DNA from: a bacterium
Lineage (GTDB): Bacteria; Patescibacteriota; Gracilibacteria; JAUYGZ01
Length of the DNA stretch: 64,000 nucleotides
Reading direction: 5' to 3'
NCBI GenBank assembly: GCA_030690415.1
Contig: JAUYGZ010000029.1
Span: 1 to 64,000 of the forward strand
Shown here: positions 1 through 9,445 of the stretch, one piece after another
Layout of the letters: every line of letters starts with the position of its first letter
How positions within the stretch are numbered: the first letter of the stretch is position 1
The notes under the pieces: generated by a model
Told to the model about the DNA's origin: nothing
Seen by the model: only the letters and a program-made list of their open reading frames with translations
Databases searched by the model: none
Made by a program: the position numbers and the translations under genes

Positions 1-1
1 G

Positions 2-73
2 TGTGCCGTAATGAGAAAGATGGTGCATGTTATTTACGCTGTTTGGACGAGAGGAACGCCGTTTGTTTCGTGA
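2..73 (+). CDS. C-terminal tail of a probable IS110-family transposase (partial)
   Basis: Only the last 23 codons are inside the window, ending at TGA 71-73. The peptide has the shape of the IS110/IS116/IS902 transposase C-terminus: a basic AVMRKMVHVIYAVW stretch followed by a GTPF tail. IS110 enzymes are DEDD transposases that move small elements without terminal inverted repeats. A strong hairpin terminator follows directly. The upstream gene is not visible, so this rests on a short tail only. Confidence 0.4.
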   Translation, partial: CAVMRKMVHVIYAVWTRGTPFVS

Positions 74-83
74 GTTGTTAATT

Positions 84-115
84 AAAAGGGGCAATTGTTA
101 AAAATTGCCTCTTTT
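84..115 (+). terminator. Intrinsic terminator after the transposase tail
   Basis: An A-rich 5' arm with GGCAATT pairs with AATTGCC, and the 3' arm runs into a T-rich stretch (CTCTTTTATT). It is placed 10 bases after the transposase stop and could work in both directions because both flanks are A/T runs. Confidence 0.7.
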
Positions 116-179
116 ATTGTTGACTGCGATATAGGTAGTTCTGTGATGTCCGCCTTCTTCTTTCTTTTAAGGTGTCCCA

Positions 180-237
180 AAGTGGGGTTTTCATTTGGCG
201 AGCGGCAGAGGGCTGGGGTGAATGCCGTGAGCCACTT
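180..237 (+). repeat. Hairpin with a shortened version of the conserved loop
   Basis: Arms 196-207 and 223-234 pair as 4 bp, a 3-nt internal loop, then 5 bp. An alternative outer pairing AAGTGG/CCACTT (180-185/232-237) is possible. The loop starts with GAGGG and ends with GGGGTGAA, like the two hairpins at 4489-4603 but lacking about six central bases. It lies 60 bases upstream of the DUF3800 gene. The rest of 116-297 shows nothing recognisable. Confidence 0.55.
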
Positions 238-297
238 CAGTTTAATTTTATGAAATAGGTATTCTGGCTTATGCTGAAATAGATTTAATTAATCAGC

Positions 298-1038
298 TTG
301 AGCAAGACGTATCTTTTTCTCGATGAATCTGGAAAGCCTGAAGTATTTTCAGCACACGGAATGAACCTGGTTCAGTCTGGGCATGCTACTCAATTTTTGG
401 TCATTGCCTCGGTGAGAACCGAAGATCAGCTTGTTTTGCAACAGGCAGTAAATGATTTTAAGAGCTCACTTTTAAAAGACACTGAGCTGATTCCACTTTT
501 TTCGTCTGCTTATGTTCTAGATAGCTTCCACGCAACTAAAGATTTTCCACAAGTTCGACAAAAATTTTACAGCTTTATTGCAACTTTGGAGGTTAAGCTT
601 GACGTTATGGTGGTGGAAAAACTGAAGTGCTTTGAAACTCTTCAAAGAAATCCAGGTAGTATGTACGGTATTATGATAGGTCAACTTATCAAAAATCTTT
701 GTCATCAGACACCGGAAGTTGAAGTTATTTTTTCCCGTAAGGACAGTAAATTGAAGCTTCAGAAAGAGCTTGAAATTGAGGTCGATCGAATTAGACTGGA
801 ATATCTTCAAAAAAATCCGACACTGAATTCAAGTGTTACTTTATCGTATCATCATAATCCTCATTATTCACATGCAGGTCTTCAGGTAGCAGATTACGTC
901 GCTTACGCAGTTTTTCAGGTCTTTGAAAGACGAAATCATGAATTATATGATCTTATTTCCCATAAAATTGGGAGAATCCATGATATTTGTAACAAAAAAC
1001 TCTTTACCCGGAGCAACCCACTGCAGCTATCTTCCTAG
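298..1038 (+). CDS. DUF3800 domain protein
   Basis: The 246-residue protein has the DUF3800 hallmark near its N-terminus (YLFLDESG, residues 5-12) and the usual C-terminal LQVADYVAYAVFQ segment, whose Asp is thought to form part of an acidic centre with the DES motif. DUF3800 proteins are widespread, poorly characterised, and often found in mobile or defence regions, as here. Translation must start at TTG 298, because the next Met lies after the DESG motif. No good Shine-Dalgarno is visible. The gene is as AT-rich as the following defence genes and unlike the core genes after 9.4 kb. The family call is firm; the activity is unknown. Confidence 0.75.
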   Translation: MSKTYLFLDESGKPEVFSAHGMNLVQSGHATQFLVIASVRTEDQLVLQQAVNDFKSSLLKDTELIPLFSSAYVLDSFHATKDFPQVRQKFYSFIATLEVKLDVMVVEKLKCFETLQRNPGSMYGIMIGQLIKNLCHQTPEVEVIFSRKDSKLKLQKELEIEVDRIRLEYLQKNPTLNSSVTLSYHHNPHYSHAGLQVADYVAYAVFQVFERRNHELYDLISHKIGRIHDICNKKLFTRSNPLQLSS

Positions 1039-1047
1039 AAGGAGGAA

Positions 1048-1095
1048 GTGCGAACTTCGCACGTCTCACTCAGTGGTCTGCTCTCGATAAAGAGC
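1048..1095. repeat. Two small hairpins downstream of the DUF3800 gene
   Basis: GTGCGAA-C-TTCGCAC (1048-1062) is a near-perfect palindrome. GCTCT-cgataa-AGAGC (1080-1095) is a second small hairpin. Neither is followed by a clean T-run, so they are weak terminator candidates between the DUF3800 gene and the oppositely oriented SIR2 gene. Confidence 0.35.
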
Positions 1096-1145
1096 TTCAG
1101 GATGTATATAATATCAGATTCTTATTATATCGTCAATGCACATCC
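1095..1145. repeat. AT-rich palindromic boundary-like element
   Basis: GGATGT...ACATCC encloses ATAATAT...ATTATAT. The order CTTCAG, TATATA, TATTAT, CGTCAA recurs on the same strand at 9205-9236, next to the right inverted repeat of the five-gene cassette. This is short, AT-rich similarity read by eye, so chance is possible. Confidence 0.3.
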
Positions 1146-1237
1146 ATAATTACTATGGCGTATCAGGGAATGGATGAACAAGTAATTATGCTTGCAGATA
1201 AATCGAATCATGATCGAAATTTATTTAAAGAAACTTT

Positions 1238-2236
1238 TTATTCATTTTCAATAAGCGGTTTATACCATTTCCATAATTCTTCGAATGGTAATTCTTTCGG
1301 GATGTTGTTATCCCCTAGGAACTGACACATCATCAATTGCTGCCACATTGTTTCACATGTTCTGCGTGGGTGTTTAGCTGCCCATGATGAATAAAAATTC
1401 TTATAAACTATGTAGTGATGACTATGAATGAATGGTTTCCATGTCTCAGCTAATTCTTCTTCATCTTTTATATCTATGATCTCTATTTCTTCAAGTGATC
1501 TAGTTTCAGGCATTCCCCATCCTTCTTTCATTAATTCAACAGCTTCGATGTCAGTATTGGGTGCTCCGTAGCCGAAGATGGTAAGCATATATGCTTCGGC
1601 TAAATATAGCTTAAGAGTGTCCCACTCACCTTTAATCAATGGGCTATCGTTGTAGTTTTTATTTTTAATAGGAAAAAGAATTTTTGAATCAGTGTATGGT
1701 TTGGAGCATTTAATACATATGCCATTTTTTGCTCCTTTCATTCTACATTCTTCACAATAACCAATCGCAGTATTTCCATGTAAATAGACAATGTGGGGTA
1801 AATCTGCATATCTATGATTTCGAATACAGGCTAAAAAAAGTAAAGGATCCCAATTAAACGTTGCGATTAGATCCTTTTTCCTAAGTGATAAGGCTAGGTG
1901 ATCATAGATGGTTGGTTGTAATGGCAGTTCGAGAAGTTCAAAGTAATTGAATACTTTTTCCTCAATTAAATTCAATAGATCGCTGCTTGGATCTATATCG
2001 TAAATTTCACTAAATACACCTTCGAAGTTTTTATTTTTAAAATTCACATGGTTTTTTTCTAAAAGTTCCTCAAGACCAGTTCTTGAAATCAAGTCATCCA
2101 TTGTTGGTAATATTTTTCCATTTAAGTCCCCATTTGGGCAAGCAGCCTTACTTGCACCAGAACCAAGGATAACTACATGGGGTTTCCCATGTGAAACATC
2201 TCTAATCTCATCTTCTGTTGTGTATTGTTTGGTCAT
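1238..2236 (-). CDS. SIR2-like domain protein with a zinc ribbon (probable defence effector)
   Basis: The 332-residue protein has a SIR2-type Rossmann layout: a GSGAS nucleotide loop (residues 25-29), TFNWD (126-130), LHG with a candidate catalytic His (152-154), and FGYG before the last strand. Two CxxC pairs (C161/C164 and C174/C177) form the zinc ribbon expected of sirtuin-like folds. SIR2-family domains in bacterial defence systems such as Thoeris ThsA and DSR often deplete NAD+ on infection; that activity is inferred here. It begins 11 bases after the Mrr-type nuclease gene, so the two are very likely co-transcribed. The first ATG at 2236 fits the operon spacing. Confidence 0.7.
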   Translation of the reverse strand: MTKQYTTEDEIRDVSHGKPHVVILGSGASKAACPNGDLNGKILPTMDDLISRTGLEELLEKNHVNFKNKNFEGVFSEIYDIDPSSDLLNLIEEKVFNYFELLELPLQPTIYDHLALSLRKKDLIATFNWDPLLFLACIRNHRYADLPHIVYLHGNTAIGYCEECRMKGAKNGICIKCSKPYTDSKILFPIKNKNYNDSPLIKGEWDTLKLYLAEAYMLTIFGYGAPNTDIEAVELMKEGWGMPETRSLEEIEIIDIKDEEELAETWKPFIHSHHYIVYKNFYSSWAAKHPRRTCETMWQQLMMCQFLGDNNIPKELPFEELWKWYKPLIENE

Positions 2237-2247
2237 TATTATGTTTT

Positions 2248-4080
2248 CTATTTCTCATTAACTGCAATAATCTTTCTAGCTTCCACAAGATCAATTTTGA
2301 ATTTGTAGTTATGCTTCTCTAATAGGCCAAGTAACTGCGCTCCATCAAGCAGTGTGATTGGCTCGTTCTGGGCGAATTTATATGCGTCTCGTCCAAAGGT
2401 ACTCGTTGTGACCAAGATTCCTCGTGAAGCACCTTCTTTTCTTACAACAGCACAGAGGTCTCTTACAGCACTAACATCCACAACATTTGTGTATCGTTTT
2501 GCTTGAATGATATATTTCCCGCCTTTTATCGGATCAGGATTAAATACTATGGCATCTACCCCTCTATCACGGCTTGCCTGAGTCACTTTGACTTCTGCTC
2601 CTTCATTTTCGAATTCCTTTTCAAACAACTCCGCTATCAAGCTTTCAAAATCTTGCCAATCCATTGATGCTAAATTTGTATCGGAGCTAAGATGGCCGAT
2701 GACTTCTTTTGTATCAATAAACCTCTTATCCTCTTTGTTTAAATGGAGGACAGGTACAACAGGTACAATATCAATTAATGTGCCTGCAGATTTACCATTT
2801 AAATTCGTTAAAGCTGATAATGGGCTTATTTTTTCTAGATTTAAATTAATAATTTGCGATTTTTCGAGTGCTACGGTTGCAGTATAAGTTTTTTTGCTTA
2901 TTCCTGTATTTGGATCGATAAATTCTACCCAACCATTTAGCACAAGAAGTTTAATAACGTCTGATGTATCGTTTCTAAATATTTCAAATGCCAATCTCAG
3001 AATTATTGCTGGGTGAATTTTAGGCACGTTTTCTTTTGTTTCTTTTTGATTCAGCGGCTTATTTATAATGCCTTTTGATTGTTCTACTTTCTTAAATACT
3101 GGGCTGTGTATGATGTCAGGTAAGCTGATTTCTACAATTGCAATCGCCTGTTCCTCGTCATAATCAGCATCCCATTGTTTTGGGATGGAGTTAGGCAATT
3201 GAATGTCATTTACTATATAATTCAATCTTTGAATTACTTTTTCTTTAGAGTTTTTTTTGTATCCTTCTTTTATCTTTTTGAAATAGGTTTTGTTTATCTC
3301 ATTCTGTTTATGGTCATTTTCTAATTCTTCGTTGTACTCTTCTATTTCAATGTTAAGTTCATTTATTATTTTGAGTTTCAGTTCATTTTCTTGAATTTTA
3401 GGAAATTTTTCGTAGCTTCCCTCATAAGAAATCAATTGATTCTCACTTTTGAACCATGGAGTTTGATTTGGAGTCAAAATCTTTTCTATGTCATCCAGGC
3501 AAATGTCGCCCTTTTCGGTTTTTTTATGTATCTCTTGTTTTTTAAACGGATCATCCTTCGACTTTCTAAGATTTCTTAATTTTATGCGGATATTTTCGAT
3601 TTCTCTTTGCCTTCTCTCTGTTTTTTGTTGTTTTTCTAAGCCTGAGAGCCGTTTCTTTTCTTCAGCATTTTTAAGCTCATTTTCCCTATCTAGAAAGGCT
3701 TTTCTTATTTCTTCAGATAATTTAACCCACTCCAATGGGGCTGCGTATTTCCAATCTTTAAGATACTTGGAACCTGGATGAATTCCATACATGCCCTCTG
3801 CGAGGCATATTTCATTTATACAGTCTCTTATTTTGTTATCTTCCTTATAATAAAAGCTCCCATATGTTTCTGATCGTTTGGCATACTTATCAATAATGTC
3901 TTTATTTCGATCAAAAATATTTTTTGTTTTATCAATAATCCTGCCCGGAAATTTTTTTGCCCTTTCGGAATCGAATGAATTTCTTTTACTATTTGAAGCT
4001 GAAATTGAAGAAATACCCTCCGAAATTGCGGAAATGATCCAAATAATAATTACTACGGCAATTAATAAAACGTACCCCAA
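2248..4080 (-). CDS. Membrane-anchored Mrr-type restriction endonuclease with coiled coil
   Basis: Of 610 residues, about 1-19 form one transmembrane helix. Residues ~110-330 are highly charged Lys/Glu-rich coiled coil, and ~470-600 are an Mrr-like PD-(D/E)xK nuclease: E479, GVD ending at D509, and the Q526-A-K528 core of the IIQAKRY strand, followed by STFGRDA. Mrr enzymes cut foreign or modified DNA; Mrr domains fused to a membrane helix occur in several poorly studied defence systems. The only plausible start is TTG 4080, since no ATG precedes the hydrophobic helix. The SIR2-like gene follows after 11 bases. A promoter and a hairpin repeat lie upstream. Nuclease assignment is strong; target and partner role are inferred. 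Confidence 0.75.
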   Translation of the reverse strand: MGYVLLIAVVIIIWIISAISEGISSISASNSKRNSFDSERAKKFPGRIIDKTKNIFDRNKDIIDKYAKRSETYGSFYYKEDNKIRDCINEICLAEGMYGIHPGSKYLKDWKYAAPLEWVKLSEEIRKAFLDRENELKNAEEKKRLSGLEKQQKTERRQREIENIRIKLRNLRKSKDDPFKKQEIHKKTEKGDICLDDIEKILTPNQTPWFKSENQLISYEGSYEKFPKIQENELKLKIINELNIEIEEYNEELENDHKQNEINKTYFKKIKEGYKKNSKEKVIQRLNYIVNDIQLPNSIPKQWDADYDEEQAIAIVEISLPDIIHSPVFKKVEQSKGIINKPLNQKETKENVPKIHPAIILRLAFEIFRNDTSDVIKLLVLNGWVEFIDPNTGISKKTYTATVALEKSQIINLNLEKISPLSALTNLNGKSAGTLIDIVPVVPVLHLNKEDKRFIDTKEVIGHLSSDTNLASMDWQDFESLIAELFEKEFENEGAEVKVTQASRDRGVDAIVFNPDPIKGGKYIIQAKRYTNVVDVSAVRDLCAVVRKEGASRGILVTTSTFGRDAYKFAQNEPITLLDGAQLLGLLEKHNYKFKIDLVEARKIIAVNEK

Positions 4081-4106
4081 TATAGTTTTTTAAAGTCTTT
4101 GAAAAA

Positions 4107-4136
4107 ATAGTATCCGAATTCTATCAACATAAGCAA
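4107..4136 (-). promoter_or_regulatory. Candidate promoter of the Mrr-SIR2 operon
   Basis: On the minus strand TTGCTT (4131-4136) and TACTAT (4107-4112) are separated by 18 bases, placing the start about 20 bases before the TTG start codon of the Mrr gene. Confidence 0.4.
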
Positions 4137-4172
4137 TTGATTGATTTAATCTTAATCCTATTTTAATTAAAG

Positions 4173-4222
4173 TTCACTCGCGTTTTCGGGGAGCGAGTGA
4201 AATCCACTATCTCCCTCTATAA
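4173..4222 (-). repeat. Hairpin leader repeat upstream of the Mrr-SIR2 operon
   Basis: TTCACTCGC (4173-4181) and GCGAGTGAA (4193-4201) form a perfect 9-bp stem. On the minus strand it is preceded by TTTATAGAGGG and a GATA-type spacer. The same order, TATAGAGGGG then a spacer then a hairpin closing with GAAAAC, occurs upstream of the methyltransferase operon at 9060-9131 in the same orientation relative to the genes. It therefore looks like a shared leader element of both defence operons. Confidence 0.5.
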
Positions 4223-4287
4223 ACAAGGAAAACCCCTCTTTGGATACCTTAATTTGACCCCTACTCCTAAAGAAAGAAGAAGAGAGA

Positions 4288-4432
4288 TGTCATCACATCG
4301 CGTTCCTGCGTATGCGATGTTTGCCAGTGGTATAATTGCACGAAGTGCTTACCACTGGCAAATATGGGTGGAGGCTTCCGGAGGTACGGAGCAAGCCGTA
4401 ACCGCATACGCAGTGTTATATGATGTACATGT
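4288..4432. repeat. Large three-armed palindrome between the two defence operons
   Basis: An 11-bp perfect outer stem, CTGCGTATGCG (4306-4316) with CGCATACGCAG (4403-4413), is extended by imperfect ATGT/CATCA pairing. It encloses two hairpins. Arm one is TTTGCCAGTGGTA (4320-4332) with TACCACTGGCAAA (4350-4362), containing an inner GCAC-gaa-GTGC. Arm two is GGCTTCCG with CGG-agc-AAGCC (about 4372-4396). The whole would fold as a cloverleaf-like structure in single-stranded DNA or RNA. With the adjoining repeats it fills the gene-free stretch 4081-4611. An open frame through it is not a credible gene. Confidence 0.7.
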
Positions 4433-4486
4433 TTTCCTTTAATTTCTGAAAGAAATTGCTCTTAAAAAGAATCTGATTTTGTTTTT
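4415..4486 (+). repeat. Left inverted repeat of the five-gene cassette
   Basis: Three parts: a 26-nt block beginning GTTATATGA (4415-4440), a hairpin AATTTC-tgaaa-GAAATT (4441-4457), and a 29-nt block beginning GCTCTTAAAAAGAATC (4458-4486). The same parts occur in inverted orientation at 9135-9205 with 24/26 and 28/29 matches, while the central hairpin has a different sequence that still pairs. Confidence 0.85.
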
Positions 4487-4488
4487 CC

Positions 4489-4543
4489 GTTTTGGGTGGC
4501 GGGCAGAGGGGAATTAAAGGGGTGAATGCCCGCCACCCAAAAC
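4489..4543. repeat. Hairpin 1 with conserved 21-nt loop
   Basis: A perfect 17-bp stem (4489-4505 with 4527-4543; GTTTTGGGTGGC start) encloses a 21-nt loop at 4506-4526 that begins GAGGGGAATT and ends AAAGGGGTGAA. The loop is identical to that of the next hairpin, although the stems differ. Confidence 0.85.
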
Positions 4544-4560
4544 ACCTATTTCTGGTTTGA

Positions 4561-4603
4561 GGGAGGGGCAAGAGGGGAATTAAAGGGGTGAATTGCCCCG
4601 CCC
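4561..4603. repeat. Hairpin 2 with the same 21-nt loop and a different stem
   Basis: GGGAGGGGCAA (4561-4571) pairs with TTGCCCCGCCC (4593-4603) with one mismatch. Loop 4572-4592 is base-for-base the same as in hairpin 1. It ends only eight bases before the last gene of the cassette, so on the minus strand it could also serve as that operon's 3' structure. Confidence 0.85.
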
Positions 4604-4611
4604 GAAAACAA

Positions 4612-5154
4612 TCAATCTTTGATTTCTATTGGTTTTTTGCATTCTTTTGCAAACTCGTAAATATTCTTTTCAAAGTGATGATTTCCTACAATCTTTGCTA
4701 ATTGCACTTGCTGCTTATCGTAATAAAACTGTCTTTCATGATCATTTGACATGGAAACTTTAGGCACGGGAACAAAATATCTATGCCCATCTAACGAAAC
4801 AAACAATTCTTTATCCAGTAGCATCGAGTTTGCTTCCAGTCTCACATAATACGAGGCGTTGTTGGTTTTGTCTGGATATAAGTCGTTATTTATCCATTCT
4901 TCTTGAAAATTTTCGACAAGTTCCTTATCCCAATCAATGATAATTTGGAAATTTGGGTGCTTTTTGTGTCGGTAGAATGACAAGTGATTATCGATTCCTT
5001 GAAACTTTTCCCAGTCTTCAGGCTTTTGAAGATACTTTTTGAAAAGCGTTATTGGATTGATGAACGATATGTAAGCAAAAAATGTTCCGACAAGCGTTGC
5101 GACTAAACCCAGAATTCCAATTATAAATCCTAAAATTGTAATAATGTCTTCCAT
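4612..5154 (-). CDS. Unrecognised protein with one N-terminal membrane helix
   Basis: I do not recognise this 180-residue protein. Residues ~4-32 form a hydrophobic helix, followed by a charged, presumably cytosolic domain rich in Tyr, His and acidic residues. There is no cysteine pattern or known catalytic motif. It is the last gene of the five-gene minus-strand operon, 39 bases after the polytopic membrane gene, and hairpin 2 follows at its 3' end. A role as an accessory membrane component of the restriction-like cassette is inferred from position only. Confidence 0.6.
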   Translation of the reverse strand: MEDIITILGFIIGILGLVATLVGTFFAYISFINPITLFKKYLQKPEDWEKFQGIDNHLSFYRHKKHPNFQIIIDWDKELVENFQEEWINNDLYPDKTNNASYYVRLEANSMLLDKELFVSLDGHRYFVPVPKVSMSNDHERQFYYDKQQVQLAKIVGNHHFEKNIYEFAKECKKPIEIKD

Positions 5155-5193
5155 AATTAACTGATAGTAGTAAGTACCCTGCCCAAAAATATA

Positions 5194-6066
5194 CTATTTC
5201 TCGAAATATTTCTTGATAATAGCATTTACATCTTTTTTGGCACTAATTTTCATTAAATCCTGTGTACTTTCTTTTGCAAACCTATTTAGTTTCGGTAAAT
5301 TCAAATGATAAGCTCGTATAATTTTACGTTTCGTAAATTTAATTAAGGCGGGGTCGTTTTTGTTGAAAATACTTAGACGAACAAATAGGGTTTCGTATGC
5401 CATTATTAGAGCGAAAAAATAAACAAATGGAATGAACGCAACTGTTAATAATGGTGGTAAAATAAAAGTCTTCAAATTTTGGGAAGTCATAATATTTTGA
5501 AAATCGCCAAAAACTTTACCAATTGCAAAAACGATAAAGAAAATACCAATCAAAGATAAAATGAAATCAAATATTTTTTTTACTGGCAAGTATTCTTTTT
5601 TTAGTCCAGAAACAGCACTCATTGCTCCGATAAAAACCAAAATGGGAACTAAAATTATTTCTGTTATTAAATTAAAAGTGTAGAGCGTTAAGATGAATTC
5701 AAGGACTAAAATAACTTTGAGATTATCTTTCAAAATCTTAATGAAAAACCCATTTTCTTGATTTACTTTGTTAGTGTTCATTAGCAGCACAAAAGCAACG
5801 GCTAAAAACCAGTAAATTGTATCTTTTAAAAGTATCCATTCCCAGATTCCAATTTTGGCCAATAATAAAACTATCAATCCAGTATAAATAATCGCGGCAA
5901 TAATTACTGATAGTATTTTTATTTGGAAAAGAGATTTTAGAATACCAAACAATGAATTTCTGATGTTTTTTTGAGAAAATGCCCAAAGTATAAAAATAAA
6001 CAGCCAACAAATAATTGCTATTTCTCTTGCGTTGAATTGTTGAAAAAAGGTAATAAGTTTATCCAT
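5194..6066 (-). CDS. Unrecognised polytopic membrane protein
   Basis: The 290-residue protein has about seven or eight hydrophobic segments between residues 12 and 235, then a basic C-terminal tail of ~55 residues (TKRKIIRAYHLNLPK...). No transporter or enzyme signature is visible. Its start overlaps the stop of the cysteine-rich gene by 8 bases, so translation is probably coupled. Codon use and AT content match the rest of the cassette. A membrane effector (pore or anchor) in a defence system is possible but is inference from neighbours. Confidence 0.6.
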   Translation of the reverse strand: MDKLITFFQQFNAREIAIICWLFIFILWAFSQKNIRNSLFGILKSLFQIKILSVIIAAIIYTGLIVLLLAKIGIWEWILLKDTIYWFLAVAFVLLMNTNKVNQENGFFIKILKDNLKVILVLEFILTLYTFNLITEIILVPILVFIGAMSAVSGLKKEYLPVKKIFDFILSLIGIFFIVFAIGKVFGDFQNIMTSQNLKTFILPPLLTVAFIPFVYFFALIMAYETLFVRLSIFNKNDPALIKFTKRKIIRAYHLNLPKLNRFAKESTQDLMKISAKKDVNAIIKKYFEK

Positions 6067-6682
6067 TTTTTTTCTCGATAGTTTTTATTTTCTCATCTAA
6101 TAATTTTGAAATGGAGGATATATAACTGCGCACTTCAACATATTTACCGCATGTGCAATCGTCATACTGAATAAAAGCGGTAGTTTTTCTGTAATTCATT
6201 TTCCCTATTTTTGGCTTTTTCAAGTTTGCATCTGCACAACTTTGGCAGAGCATATCGGTTCTAACAAAAACATAGATTTTGAAATCGCTATCATTATTAA
6301 TGCGTCTCGTGTCCATATATACATATTCAGATCCATGCAAAAAAGTTGATACGATATTGGCCAAGAGTTCTTCTTTCTCTTCACCATTAAAAAAAGCATG
6401 CTCGTCTGCATGTAAATAGCTTGATGTGTCTAACGTTTTTTCATTTTTGGGTATTACAACACTTACTTTGTATTGTGGATTCTTTTTAGAATTTTTAACA
6501 AGCATTTTCCTTGCAATTGCAGATGTTGTGTCTAATAGGGGGTAAATTCTATAAACATCTTCAATATCTTCTGGATTGCTCCAGTTTTTTTCTAATTTTG
6601 CCCATAACTCATCAAGTTCTTTTAATTCAACTTCAAGCTTTTCTAGTGAACAATTCCCATATTTACACCATGTTCTTGTCAT
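6059..6682 (-). CDS. Unrecognised cysteine-containing protein
   Basis: I do not recognise this 207-residue soluble protein. It carries possible metal-binding cysteines: C6/C11 near the N-terminus, a CQSC pair in the middle of the second half, and CTC near residue 180. A helical segment (residues ~12-35) follows the first pair. It lies 8 bases after the DUF262-HNH gene and overlaps the next membrane gene, so it belongs to the same operon. DNA or ligand sensing is possible but unsupported by a named family. Confidence 0.6.
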   Translation of the reverse strand: MTRTWCKYGNCSLEKLEVELKELDELWAKLEKNWSNPEDIEDVYRIYPLLDTTSAIARKMLVKNSKKNPQYKVSVVIPKNEKTLDTSSYLHADEHAFFNGEEKEELLANIVSTFLHGSEYVYMDTRRINNDSDFKIYVFVRTDMLCQSCADANLKKPKIGKMNYRKTTAFIQYDDCTCGKYVEVRSYISSISKLLDEKIKTIEKKNG

Positions 6683-6690
6683 AATATTTT

Positions 6691-7860
6691 CTATCGATTA
6701 CCTTTTGCCCGATTATGTGTCTTACACAACATCTCGCAGTTTTTAATATCACTCTTACCACCTTTGCTCCACGCCGAAACATGGTCGGCGTCCATATCGC
6801 TCAAACTCCAAATTTTTGCTTTGTTTGCGTCGTGTCCGATAGCACAATGTGAGCAATTTGATTTACCTTTTTTCTCCGCCTCAGCGGTTTGTGTTGCGTA
6901 AACTGCTTTTTTCGTTGCTTCATCAAAAACTCGGACTTCAAGCAATTTTGTATCAACAGAACCACCGAGAATGTACTCAAAAATACCTTTGCGATTTTTT
7001 ATATACGGATCAGCATAGAGTTTGTGAACCTCGGCAGATACCTTAGCAGGATTGTATGCCTTTTTATGGTATTCTTCATAGAGTCGTCCCCATTCAAGCC
7101 CGCGCATTTCACTTTCAACATCGATAAACACACTGGAAACCCAATCAATTACGCTATTAAAATAGATTTTTAGCTCTTTGATATTATCGTCGTAGCGATG
7201 ACGACTCATGTAGTCACCGATGTTTCCCTTACTTACCCAATCAAAAGCACGCTCTAAAAATTCTTGCCTGTTTGCACTACCTTTTACATACGCACTCCAT
7301 TTTTGGATATTGGCATTTTGACTATTACTAAACTCAGCTTTGCCGAGCGTAACAAATGGGCCGGAATATACGGCGTTGAGTAGCTCCTGATCATTCAGAG
7401 GAACACCAGCAATATTGATTGTTTTGAACCACTCTTTTATTTCACTTTCTGTTCCTTCACATTCGTAAATAAGCAGTTTCGTTTCTAAAATCTGGGTTTG
7501 CTTGTCTTTTGCCATACCACCAAAATATTGCTCCATGCTATTTTCGTCTTTGATAGCAAATTTATCAGTTACAAATCGTCCAAGACTGGTAATACGTTGC
7601 TGTCCGTCTAAAACTTCAAGATTGCTGTCGCTTACTCTATTAAAATAAATCAAACCTATTGGATAACCCTTCAAGACTGATGCGATGACGGCCATTTCTT
7701 TCTTTCCGCCGTCAGATGCATAAATATAGTTGCGCTGATATTCCGGCTGAATAGTAAGATTGCCAGACAAACCGAATAGTCCTTTGCCTTCAAGTTCGTT
7801 GTAGACGAATCCTTCGCAAATATCTTTGACAGTGATGGTTGTTTTTAAAATTGTTTTCAT
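6691..7860 (-). CDS. DUF262-HNH nuclease (GmrSD/ParB-N-like plus HNH)
   Basis: Start taken at ATG 7860 (389 residues), directly after the methyltransferase stop; an upstream ATG at 7905 would add 15 residues overlapping that gene. The N-terminal DUF262 domain shows [10 protein letters not shown] and the signature DGQQR (residues 85-89). The C-terminus (336-389) is an HNH nuclease: CxxC, D359-H360, N374 and H382-N383, with a further Cys pair, giving a zinc-bound beta-beta-alpha-metal fold. DUF262 domains are NTP-dependent in GmrSD enzymes, which cut modified phage DNA. Next to an EcoRI-type methylase it is probably the nuclease half of a restriction-modification-like system. Confidence 0.8.
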
Positions 7861-7861
7861 A

Positions 7862-8974
7862 TTATTTATGTTTAATAATGATTCTTCTATAAACAGGCTT
7901 TCCATTTAAATCAGGGCCTCTGCCTCTCCAGTTAGGATATTGCAACCTATGATCATCCATTCCTAAAATCTCAAATTGTTCAGGGTTGTATTTATCCAAA
8001 AAACTAATCGGTACGCCCATTGTACCGGGGTAATCGCTAGGGATGGCATCAGTAAACGGCACTTCTATGGCATCATAATTGTCGTATACACCGTACGTTT
8101 TTTTGCCTTTAATTTCTTTGTGTTTGCTATATTTTAGATTGTCTTCCATAGTCATTAGAGGCAATGGCTGATGACGTCGCCCATGATCAATATTCGTAAG
8201 CCACAAACAATTATTAGTGGCAACAATTCTGTCTCCATTTTCATCTATTCTAGCTTCTGTTCCGTACAATTCGTAGGATTGAGGCACAATAAAGCCAGAA
8301 ATCCATCTTCCCATTCCGTTACCAAGCCATGCTTCATTATTTTTAATTTTTTGAAATATTTCTTTGTATGTTATGCAATTAATATTGCCAATGATCAAAA
8401 ACTTTTTTTTGTAATCAAAAAGTTGCTTCACATATTCTCGGAACAAACTAAACGGTGGATTTGTTACGACGACATCAGACTGTTTAAGTAACTCTATGCA
8501 TTCATCACTTCGAAAATCGCCATCACCCTCAAGCGGTGCCCATTCGTTGTTTTTGTTTGCCTTTAGCTGTTTGGCAACATCTTTTAAATTAAACTCGCCA
8601 TCACCGTCTATATCTTTTACTTCATTGATAATAAACTTGTTGGCTGTTAGTTTTGGACGACCTTTTGATTCGGCAAGAGTCTTATCATCGCCAAATAATG
8701 CCAATTGCGTGTTAGCAACAGGTGATGGTTTGTAGCTCGTGGTAATAAGCTGCTTCAGTCCAAGTTTGTTGAAATTGAGTACAAAATAGCGAAAAAAATT
8801 GCTCTCGAAAGGATCGTCGCAATTGCAATATACTACTTTAGCTCGAAACGTATTAGGGTTGTAGTCTAAATACTTCTCAATTTCTTTCTGAATATCGATG
8901 TATTGAGTATAAAACTCATCATTCTTTGCCCGTTTCGCATTTGTAAGATTTTTAGCTGATGCTTCTCTAGCCAT
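7862..8974 (-). CDS. EcoRI-family adenine-specific DNA methyltransferase
   Basis: The 370-residue protein matches the EcoRI methylase family: NDEFYTQ (18-24), CNCDDP (50-55), and the N6-adenine catalytic motif NPPF (172-175) followed by SLFREY. It transfers a methyl group from AdoMet to adenine in a recognition site, protecting host DNA. It is the first gene of the minus-strand operon and ends one base before the start of the DUF262-HNH gene. The partner is not an EcoRI-like endonuclease, so the pairing is unusual. The segment 110-160, with a DGDGEF stretch, is lineage-specific. Confidence 0.88.
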
Positions 8975-9028: not shown

Positions 9029-9131
9029 CTGTTTCCGGAGCGAAGCGGAGGAAACACCGCTTATTCCCCTTATAAAATAAATGTTTTCGTAGCGGAGCGA
9101 AGAAAACTCCATATTTCCCCTCTATAAATAA
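9007..9131 (-). repeat. Tandem hairpin leader repeats upstream of the methyltransferase operon
   Basis: Read on the minus strand, three AGGGG-A/T-rich units alternate with two hairpins: GAAAAC/GTTTTC arms at about 9083-9107 and GGAAAC/GTTTCC arms at 9031-9055. Both loops are 13 nt of the CGCTCCGC type. The unit resembles the element before the Mrr operon. With the right inverted repeat it accounts for most of 8975-9210. Confidence 0.6.
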
Positions 9132-9134
9132 AAG

Positions 9135-9205
9135 AAAAACAAAATCGGATTCTTTTTAAGAGCTGGGGCGGTAGCCCCAAAAGGAAAACATGTATTTCAT
9201 ATAAC
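9135..9205 (-). repeat. Right inverted repeat of the five-gene cassette
   Basis: Inverted counterpart of 4415-4486: a 29-nt block (9135-9163), a hairpin TGGGGC-ggta-GCCCCA (9164-9179), and a 26-nt block (9180-9205) ending at the GTTATATGA complement. Both outer blocks are conserved, while the hairpin stem is GC-rich here and AT-rich on the left. The remainder up to 9445 is AT-rich, without a gene I can support. Confidence 0.85.
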
Positions 9206-9445
9206 TTCAGTATATACGAAATATTATTCCGTCAACACTCAGTATTGGCATGTTATCTGAACTTGGATTACAAGTGACACGAATTGAGTTTATTGATAAA
9301 TAGTATGAATAAGCATGAAGCGTTGCACGTTTTTCGAGGGGGATTTTTGCTGGCTCAAAAAACCCAACTACGGTCACCATGTATACGGAAGATGATGTCC
9401 AGTCGGCCCCTTTCTTCAAGGGTAATGCGTGAAACACTGCCCTTG

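Follow-up and report, generated by a model that had tools for sequence, protein, structure and literature searches.

Integrons are the main known system by which single genes are captured and shuffled. Of the described systems, they (IntI/attI/attC; CALINs) are closest to the CPR cassette arrays analysed here, in which a tyrosine recombinase nearest to IntI4 stands divergent from a co-oriented array, the sites carry RYYYAAC/GTTRRRY boxes, and R'' of a cassette pairs with its own R'. The CPR arrays differ from integrons in that the integrase has no I2 region and the L stem of the attC site has no extrahelical bases, while a side hairpin and the motif CCACCCATAT are present. Further differences are the extension of the R pairing to arms of about 75 nt, the cassette-end hairpin with its leader box, and multi-gene cassettes that reach about 8.5 kb.

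Archaeal integrons also occur outside the usual bacterial phyla and have mostly been seen as clusters of attC sites; the accessible part of that report mentions neither CPR members nor a cassette-end hairpin (PMC9668308). The attP site of CTX phage, used by XerCD, is likewise a folded single strand without extrahelical bases acted on by an I2-less recombinase, but it has no dedicated recombinase and no cassette array (PMC4792948). On the family of XerA and the archaeal Xer proteins (NF040815, PDB 5HXY, 4A8E), the scores of the CPR recombinases are nearly as good or even higher. In contrast to these, the CPR recombinases have the IntI-type C-terminus IKSPL(D) and are linked to attC arrays, and the genome studied here has a separate Xer on contig C9. 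A study of defence genes in groundwater CPR relied on IntegronFinder, retaining integrons only if they were complete (PMC12259885). No description of integrons or attC sites in CPR/Patescibacteria was found in the literature searched; further papers may exist beyond it.

The integron context of the hairpins, which had escaped the first-pass annotation of this DNA, is the main result and is well supported. The role of the hairpin loop is inferred, and there are no recombination or binding data. The hairpins are read, with confidence slightly above even, as a structural element at the 3' end of the gene cassettes of an integron variant that is specific to CPR.

Hairpins and cassettes of the window

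The window, i.e. the whole 64-kb stretch of DNA that was analysed, contains a cassette with two hairpins and a neighbouring cassette with a third. Their features are as follows.

148 to 4307, no strand assigned: neighbouring cassette, with boundaries inferred from the inverted ends; an IS110-like element interrupts its R'' edge
191 to 239, plus strand: third hairpin, with a 15-nt loop GAGGGCTGGGGTGAA, ending the neighbouring cassette (covariance model 33 bits, E=1.6e-5)
298 to 1038, plus strand: DUF3800 gene of the neighbouring cassette
1238 to 2236, minus strand: unknown gene of the neighbouring cassette
2248 to 4080, minus strand: Mrr-type type IV restriction enzyme gene of the neighbouring cassette
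4295 to 4421, minus strand: attC-like recombination site, with R'' CATATAAC at 4415 to 4422 (attC model 74 bits, E=2.7e-17)
4415 to 4487, no strand assigned: terminal inverted-repeat arm at the hairpin end, containing a small variable-stem hairpin (from the inverted repeat and the fold)
4489 to 4543, plus strand: hairpin 1, with a 17-bp stem and the loop GAGGGGAATTAAAGGGGTGAA, on the bottom strand relative to the cassette genes (covariance model 81 bits)
4555 to 4609, plus strand: hairpin 2, with the loop of hairpin 1 and a different, interrupted stem (covariance model 63 bits)
4612 to 6682, minus strand: three cargo ORFs without Pfam matches (4612 to 5154, 5194 to 6066 and 6059 to 6682)
6691 to 7905, minus strand: cargo gene for a GmrSD_N/HNH endonuclease, scored as a type II restriction enzyme (PADLOC REase_II, E=1.6e-81)
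7862 to 8974, minus strand: cargo gene for an EcoRI-type adenine methyltransferase (PF13651, E=3.6e-127; PADLOC MTase_II)
9083 to 9107, minus strand: leader hairpin GTTTTC...GAAAAC, following the leader box (from sequence)
9109 to 9122, minus strand: 5' leader box GAGGGGAAATATGG, which is complementary to the loop of the hairpins (from sequence, with a family-wide association)
9134 to 9205, no strand assigned: terminal inverted-repeat arm at the other end, with R' GTTATATG at its edge on the minus strand

The first-pass annotation described two adjacent hairpins with different stems and an identical 21-nt loop, and both are present at 4489-4543 and 4555-4609. The stem of hairpin 1 is a perfect 17 bp, as reported there, and nowhere else in the window does a perfect stem reach 15 bp and enclose a loop of 3-39 nt. 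The stem of hairpin 2 had been given as a plain 11 bp, but it has 14 pairs, arranged as 7+3+4 bp with small interruptions between them. The third version given at 196-234 proved to be real, at 191-239, and is a weaker member of the hairpin family. A scan of Rfam release 15 detected no family at the hairpins up to E=1. A second, paralogous twin pair of hairpins lies on contig C7 of the source genome, and one more twin pair was found in a genome of the same family.

The cargo of the window cassette includes a type II restriction-modification pair, composed of the EcoRI-type methylase and the GmrSD/HNH endonuclease. The cassette on contig C7 carries a type IIG enzyme, an SNF2 helicase and a Shedu-like protein. 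Among 89 hairpin-adjacent genes, Fic proteins, AAA ATPases, restriction enzymes, methylases and Shedu recur; defence cargo is recurrent, yet it is no rule. Two diverged pairs of direct repeats, each spaced about 20.5 kb (14196-14615/34926-35345 and 16810-17109/37156-37455), were also observed and are apparently a duplicated gene block.

The attC-like arrays and their recombinase

The attC-like site is composed of RYYYAAC, a 13-bp stem, a side hairpin, CCACCCATAT, a terminal stem and GAAC-GTTRRRY. In its R boxes (RYYYAAC and GTTRRRY), AAC/GTT is invariant in 23 of 23 sites. The L stem is paired in 95% of cells and shows covariation, and the covariation score of the whole site is 0.51 versus 0.16. 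All 13 bp of this stem are continuous, with no extrahelical base, and the asymmetry of the site comes from the side hairpin and from a spacer of 1 nt versus 4 nt. The sites were located with a covariance model; an earlier heuristic finder was noisy and missed the site at 4295-4421. This model, R2, matched 160 times in an initial set of 100 loci and 22 times in a further 27. The sites often occur many to a locus and in one orientation, forming co-oriented arrays; one genome has at least 16 of them in about 28 kb.

In an integron, R'' of a cassette is expected to pair with R' at its own start, both being derived from one attC in the circular form. Pairing of R'' over 20 nt in 90 cassettes was 14.4 with the own R', as opposed to 11.0 with the next site and 10.9 for random pairing (p=1.6e-10). 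This cassette-specific pairing is what mobile integron cassettes are expected to show.

Several side observations concern these sites. Among the non-CPR genomes reached via other loci (G389-G400), the attC model matched in 1 of 12. Two archaeal bins hold CPR attC matches on many contigs, 25 in G383 (L032, Methanophagales) and 9 in G384 (L045, Altarchaeum), which reflect either cross-domain exchange or mixed bins. The long terminal stems (e.g. that of 4295-4421) often contain ATTATA on the sense strand, which is TATAAT on the bottom strand, and a promoter inside attC is possible. An IS110-like element (3' end at window 1-147, 5' end on contig C8) lies at the R' edge of attC-like sites (GATCTGTGATGTCC and GTTAGCTGATG) in two places (L010 73-213; L022 1-450, contig C8). 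Judged by this placement, an IS110 appears to target CPR attC sites.

An IntI-like tyrosine recombinase occurs in many of these loci, and in 18 of the 19 loci that hold both it is located 5' of the array and divergent from it, which is the classical integron layout. In sequence comparison with solved structures, the recombinase matched IntI4 (E=2e-47) ahead of XerA (3e-39) and XerD (9e-25), and IntI4 was also the first fold match of its predicted model (pLDDT 88.5). The catalytic residues are kept, and the C-terminus reads as in IntI. The IntI-specific I2 region (patch II-III) is absent, leaving an alignment gap of about 44 residues against IntI4 (2A3V). It is missing in all array-linked integrases but one, and the predicted model has no helix there. 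On the IntI profile TIGR02249, the recombinases reach 191-240 bits, above XerC/XerD in the CPR set and below the cut-off of 265 bits, while the score on the XerA family (NF040815) is close to, or above, that of TIGR02249. No classical IntI was found at the curated cut-off in 380 CPR genomes. A first impression that the arrays have no integrases was overturned when I2-less relatives were found beside them. The CPR system is rated an integron variant: most of the defining features are met, and the I2 region and the extrahelical bases were tested and are not.

The candidate integrase of the source genome lies on contig C6 (39432-40220). It adjoins a cassette start, CTGTGACATCCGCC, which is related to the cassette starts of the window and of contig C7. 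A promoter- and attI-like sequence, TTGACGGAATAATATTTCGTATATACTGAA and then GTTATATG, was noticed at 9206-9250 of the window (minus strand) and at L029 5305-5352, between cassette and mutY; it resembles sequence beside the C6 integrase. The sole array-linked integrase with an insertion near the I2 position is that of G145 (L150 2393-3307), and different-looking attC-like repeats (CGCTTATCAA...) occur near it.

The hairpin family and its place in the cassette

In a scan of 84,980 prokaryote genomes, the loop-end pattern occurred at at least 112 loci. Among the loci listed, most of the named records are CPR/Patescibacteria of many lineages, and about 100 of the matches listed are true hairpins. 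Once stem pairing was required, 105 hairpins were left, the window and C7 counted in. A covariance model with variable stem and fixed loop, the search of metagenomic CPR genomes that the first-pass annotation had proposed, matched in 29 of 380 CPR genomes from about 20 families. The reading given there would have fallen had no further copies existed, but about 100 more were found, mostly in CPR/Patescibacteria. The only match in viral contigs arose by chance. Nearly all of the genomes are MAGs, the loci were gathered via the loop sequence, the ORF calls are mechanical, and E-values of home-made covariance models are rough.

In 23 diverse hairpins, compensatory changes were found on both sides in 16 of 17 stem pairs, with a covariation score of 0.65 versus 0.16 in shuffles. 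A comparison of 98 distinct hairpins showed constant loop ends, GAGGGG and GGGGTGAA, and a middle that varies in sequence and in length, with loops of 15-21 nt; the exact 21-nt loop was rejected as an invariant. A loop drifting as fast as its stem had been named as grounds for giving up the element; this objection fails, since the loop ends stay fixed while the stems change with compensation. The constancy of the loop ends is partly set by how the matches were selected. Comparable hairpins with other loops were present in 30 of 93 cassettes without the model hairpin, against 11 of 93 when shuffled, the figure for hairpin cassettes being 82 of 95. Since such hairpins do not rise much above the shuffled level in hairpin-less cassettes, the constancy is not only a search effect. 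A G-quadruplex reading of the bottom strand was considered and dropped, as stems without G-runs are common.

An attC-like site lies within 400 nt downstream in the same sense for 92 of 124 hairpins, most often at a distance of 69-70 nt, and on the other strand for only 1. Copies that are many and palindromic could also belong to a small independent mobile repeat (REP/MITE-like) that inserts beside attC by chance. This is scarcely credible, however, with a spacing of 69-70 nt and an orientation that are fixed relative to attC, with the coupling to a leader box at the far end of the cassette, and with the attC family present in 28 of the 29 hairpin-bearing CPR genomes as against 35 of the 351 others (p=8e-24). 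The hairpin is not essential for cassettes, since it is absent from roughly half of the sites in the attC sample. Cassettes with the hairpin are longer, with a median of 2199 nt versus 718 nt without it (p=4e-12), and in many of them the two ends pair with each other through arms of about 70-80 nt (terminal inverted repeats of about 75 nt).

In gene sense, the hairpin is positioned just after the last gene and before attC, and for 94 of 105 hairpins the right-hand gene points to it. Where an ORF of at least 70 aa ends at most 60 nt away, stop codon and stem are a median of 5 nt apart; for hairpin 2, only 3 nt separate the foot from the stop codon of the gene at 4612-5154 on the minus strand. 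A stable stem directly past the stop codon could serve as an intrinsic transcription terminator ending each cassette, yet no U-tract follows the stem on either strand, both of which run GTTTT-stem-AAAAC. The conserved part is the loop, which terminators do not need, and a terminator-like hairpin with a U-rich tail exists nearby, after the IS110-like gene (window 88-120). A terminator is therefore very improbable, and the earlier statement that this is no plain terminator is upheld.

The far end of the cassette carries a matching sequence. A G-rich box, AGGGG (GAGGGGAA), lies 50-125 nt from the cassette start in 42 of 47 cassettes with the hairpin and in 9 of 69 without it (p=4e-17). This leader box is complementary to the hairpin loop, and the box faces inward at both cassette ends. 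Variants of loop and box are correlated, GAGGGGAA loops going with GGGGAA boxes (16/4 versus 1/18, p=2e-6); co-inheritance of end families, not pairing, could produce this correlation. The inward-facing box at both ends, with invariant loop ends on variable stems, would also fit a CPR protein that reads the G-rich GAGGGGAA(N)AAGGGGTG as an inverted pair, the hairpin only presenting one copy as a single strand. This explanation is considered rather unlikely, because no candidate protein was identified and no comparable loop holds the 5' box.

Folding of the cassette ends and its meaning

As far as sequence alone can establish them, the array, the end pairing, the linked IntI-like recombinase, the hairpin position and the loop-leader complementarity are established. 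The strand on which the hairpin works is less certain. In the stems of the hairpins, G.T wobbles are more frequent on the bottom strand (50 versus 29, p=0.02; 40 versus 19 in the first set), while those in the arms lean the opposite way without significance (30 sense versus 18 bottom). The bottom strand is the one used in classical attC recombination (PMC2727003). When the ends of the window cassette are joined as in an excised circle, either strand folds into one long attC structure, in which attC is followed by an extended stem of about 75 nt with a four-way junction of two small hairpins, and hairpin 1 stands at the foot. The fold energy is -133 kcal/mol for the bottom strand versus -127 kcal/mol (DNA parameters).

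The hairpin might alternatively act in RNA, as a 3'-UTR structure that shields the cassette mRNA, or as a loop that pairs with the 5' leader (GAGGGGAA), joins the mRNA ends and tunes stability or translation. The stem foot lying a median of 5 nt past the stop codon, the loop-complementary box in the 5' region of the same cassette, and the resemblance of this box to a ribosome-binding or transcript-start region are consistent with such a role. However, 22 of 91 attC-linked hairpins keep their place with no sense ORF stop within 60 nt, the wobbles favour the antisense strand, and the position is fixed relative to attC; an mRNA function is thus doubtful, though it remains a possibility. The kept place in these 22 cases and the bottom-strand wobble bias are the reasons why a function in DNA is preferred, in which the hairpin would close or mark the folded ends, and it probably acts on the folded bottom DNA strand. 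The choice left by the first-pass annotation between RNA and single-stranded DNA is not settled, since the wobble evidence, which fits the latter, is modest. Its suggestion that the element is recognised through the loop has not been shown, and it is equally plausible that the loop pairs with a partner at the opposite cassette end.

For the preferred 3'-end structural element, the following course can be proposed. In gene sense, a cassette is ordered as 5' arm, leader box GAGGGGAAATATGG, genes, stop codon, hairpin(s), 3' arm (about 70 nt) and attC. The bottom strand of the excised or single-stranded cassette is inferred to fold, so that the two arms of about 75 nt lengthen the attC stem and the hairpin comes to lie at the foot of the long folded stem. 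There, the G-rich loop may contact the complementary leader opposite, or a protein that reads the leader box. The whole arrangement would serve to stabilise or mark the ends where a cassette is unusually long, and the I2-less integrase could then use the folded site. It is considered an even chance that these arrays represent a distinct CPR integron class, with an I2-less IntI-like recombinase and attC sites without extrahelical bases, in which the paired ends of long multi-gene cassettes (G-rich loop hairpin and complementary leader) close the folded ends, and which would be an alternative or early form of integron.

The GAGGGG...GGGGTGAA loop and the attC model provide a simple handle for arrays in metagenomes, which may go undetected by standard integron finders. 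With the cassette-end hairpin, a new type of part is added to those of the cassette, and it may account for the movement of multi-gene defence systems as one cassette each. How the recognition of folded attC evolved is an open chicken-and-egg problem (PMC4792948). A CPR-wide variant without I2, a region thought to define integrons, bears on the origin of this recognition.
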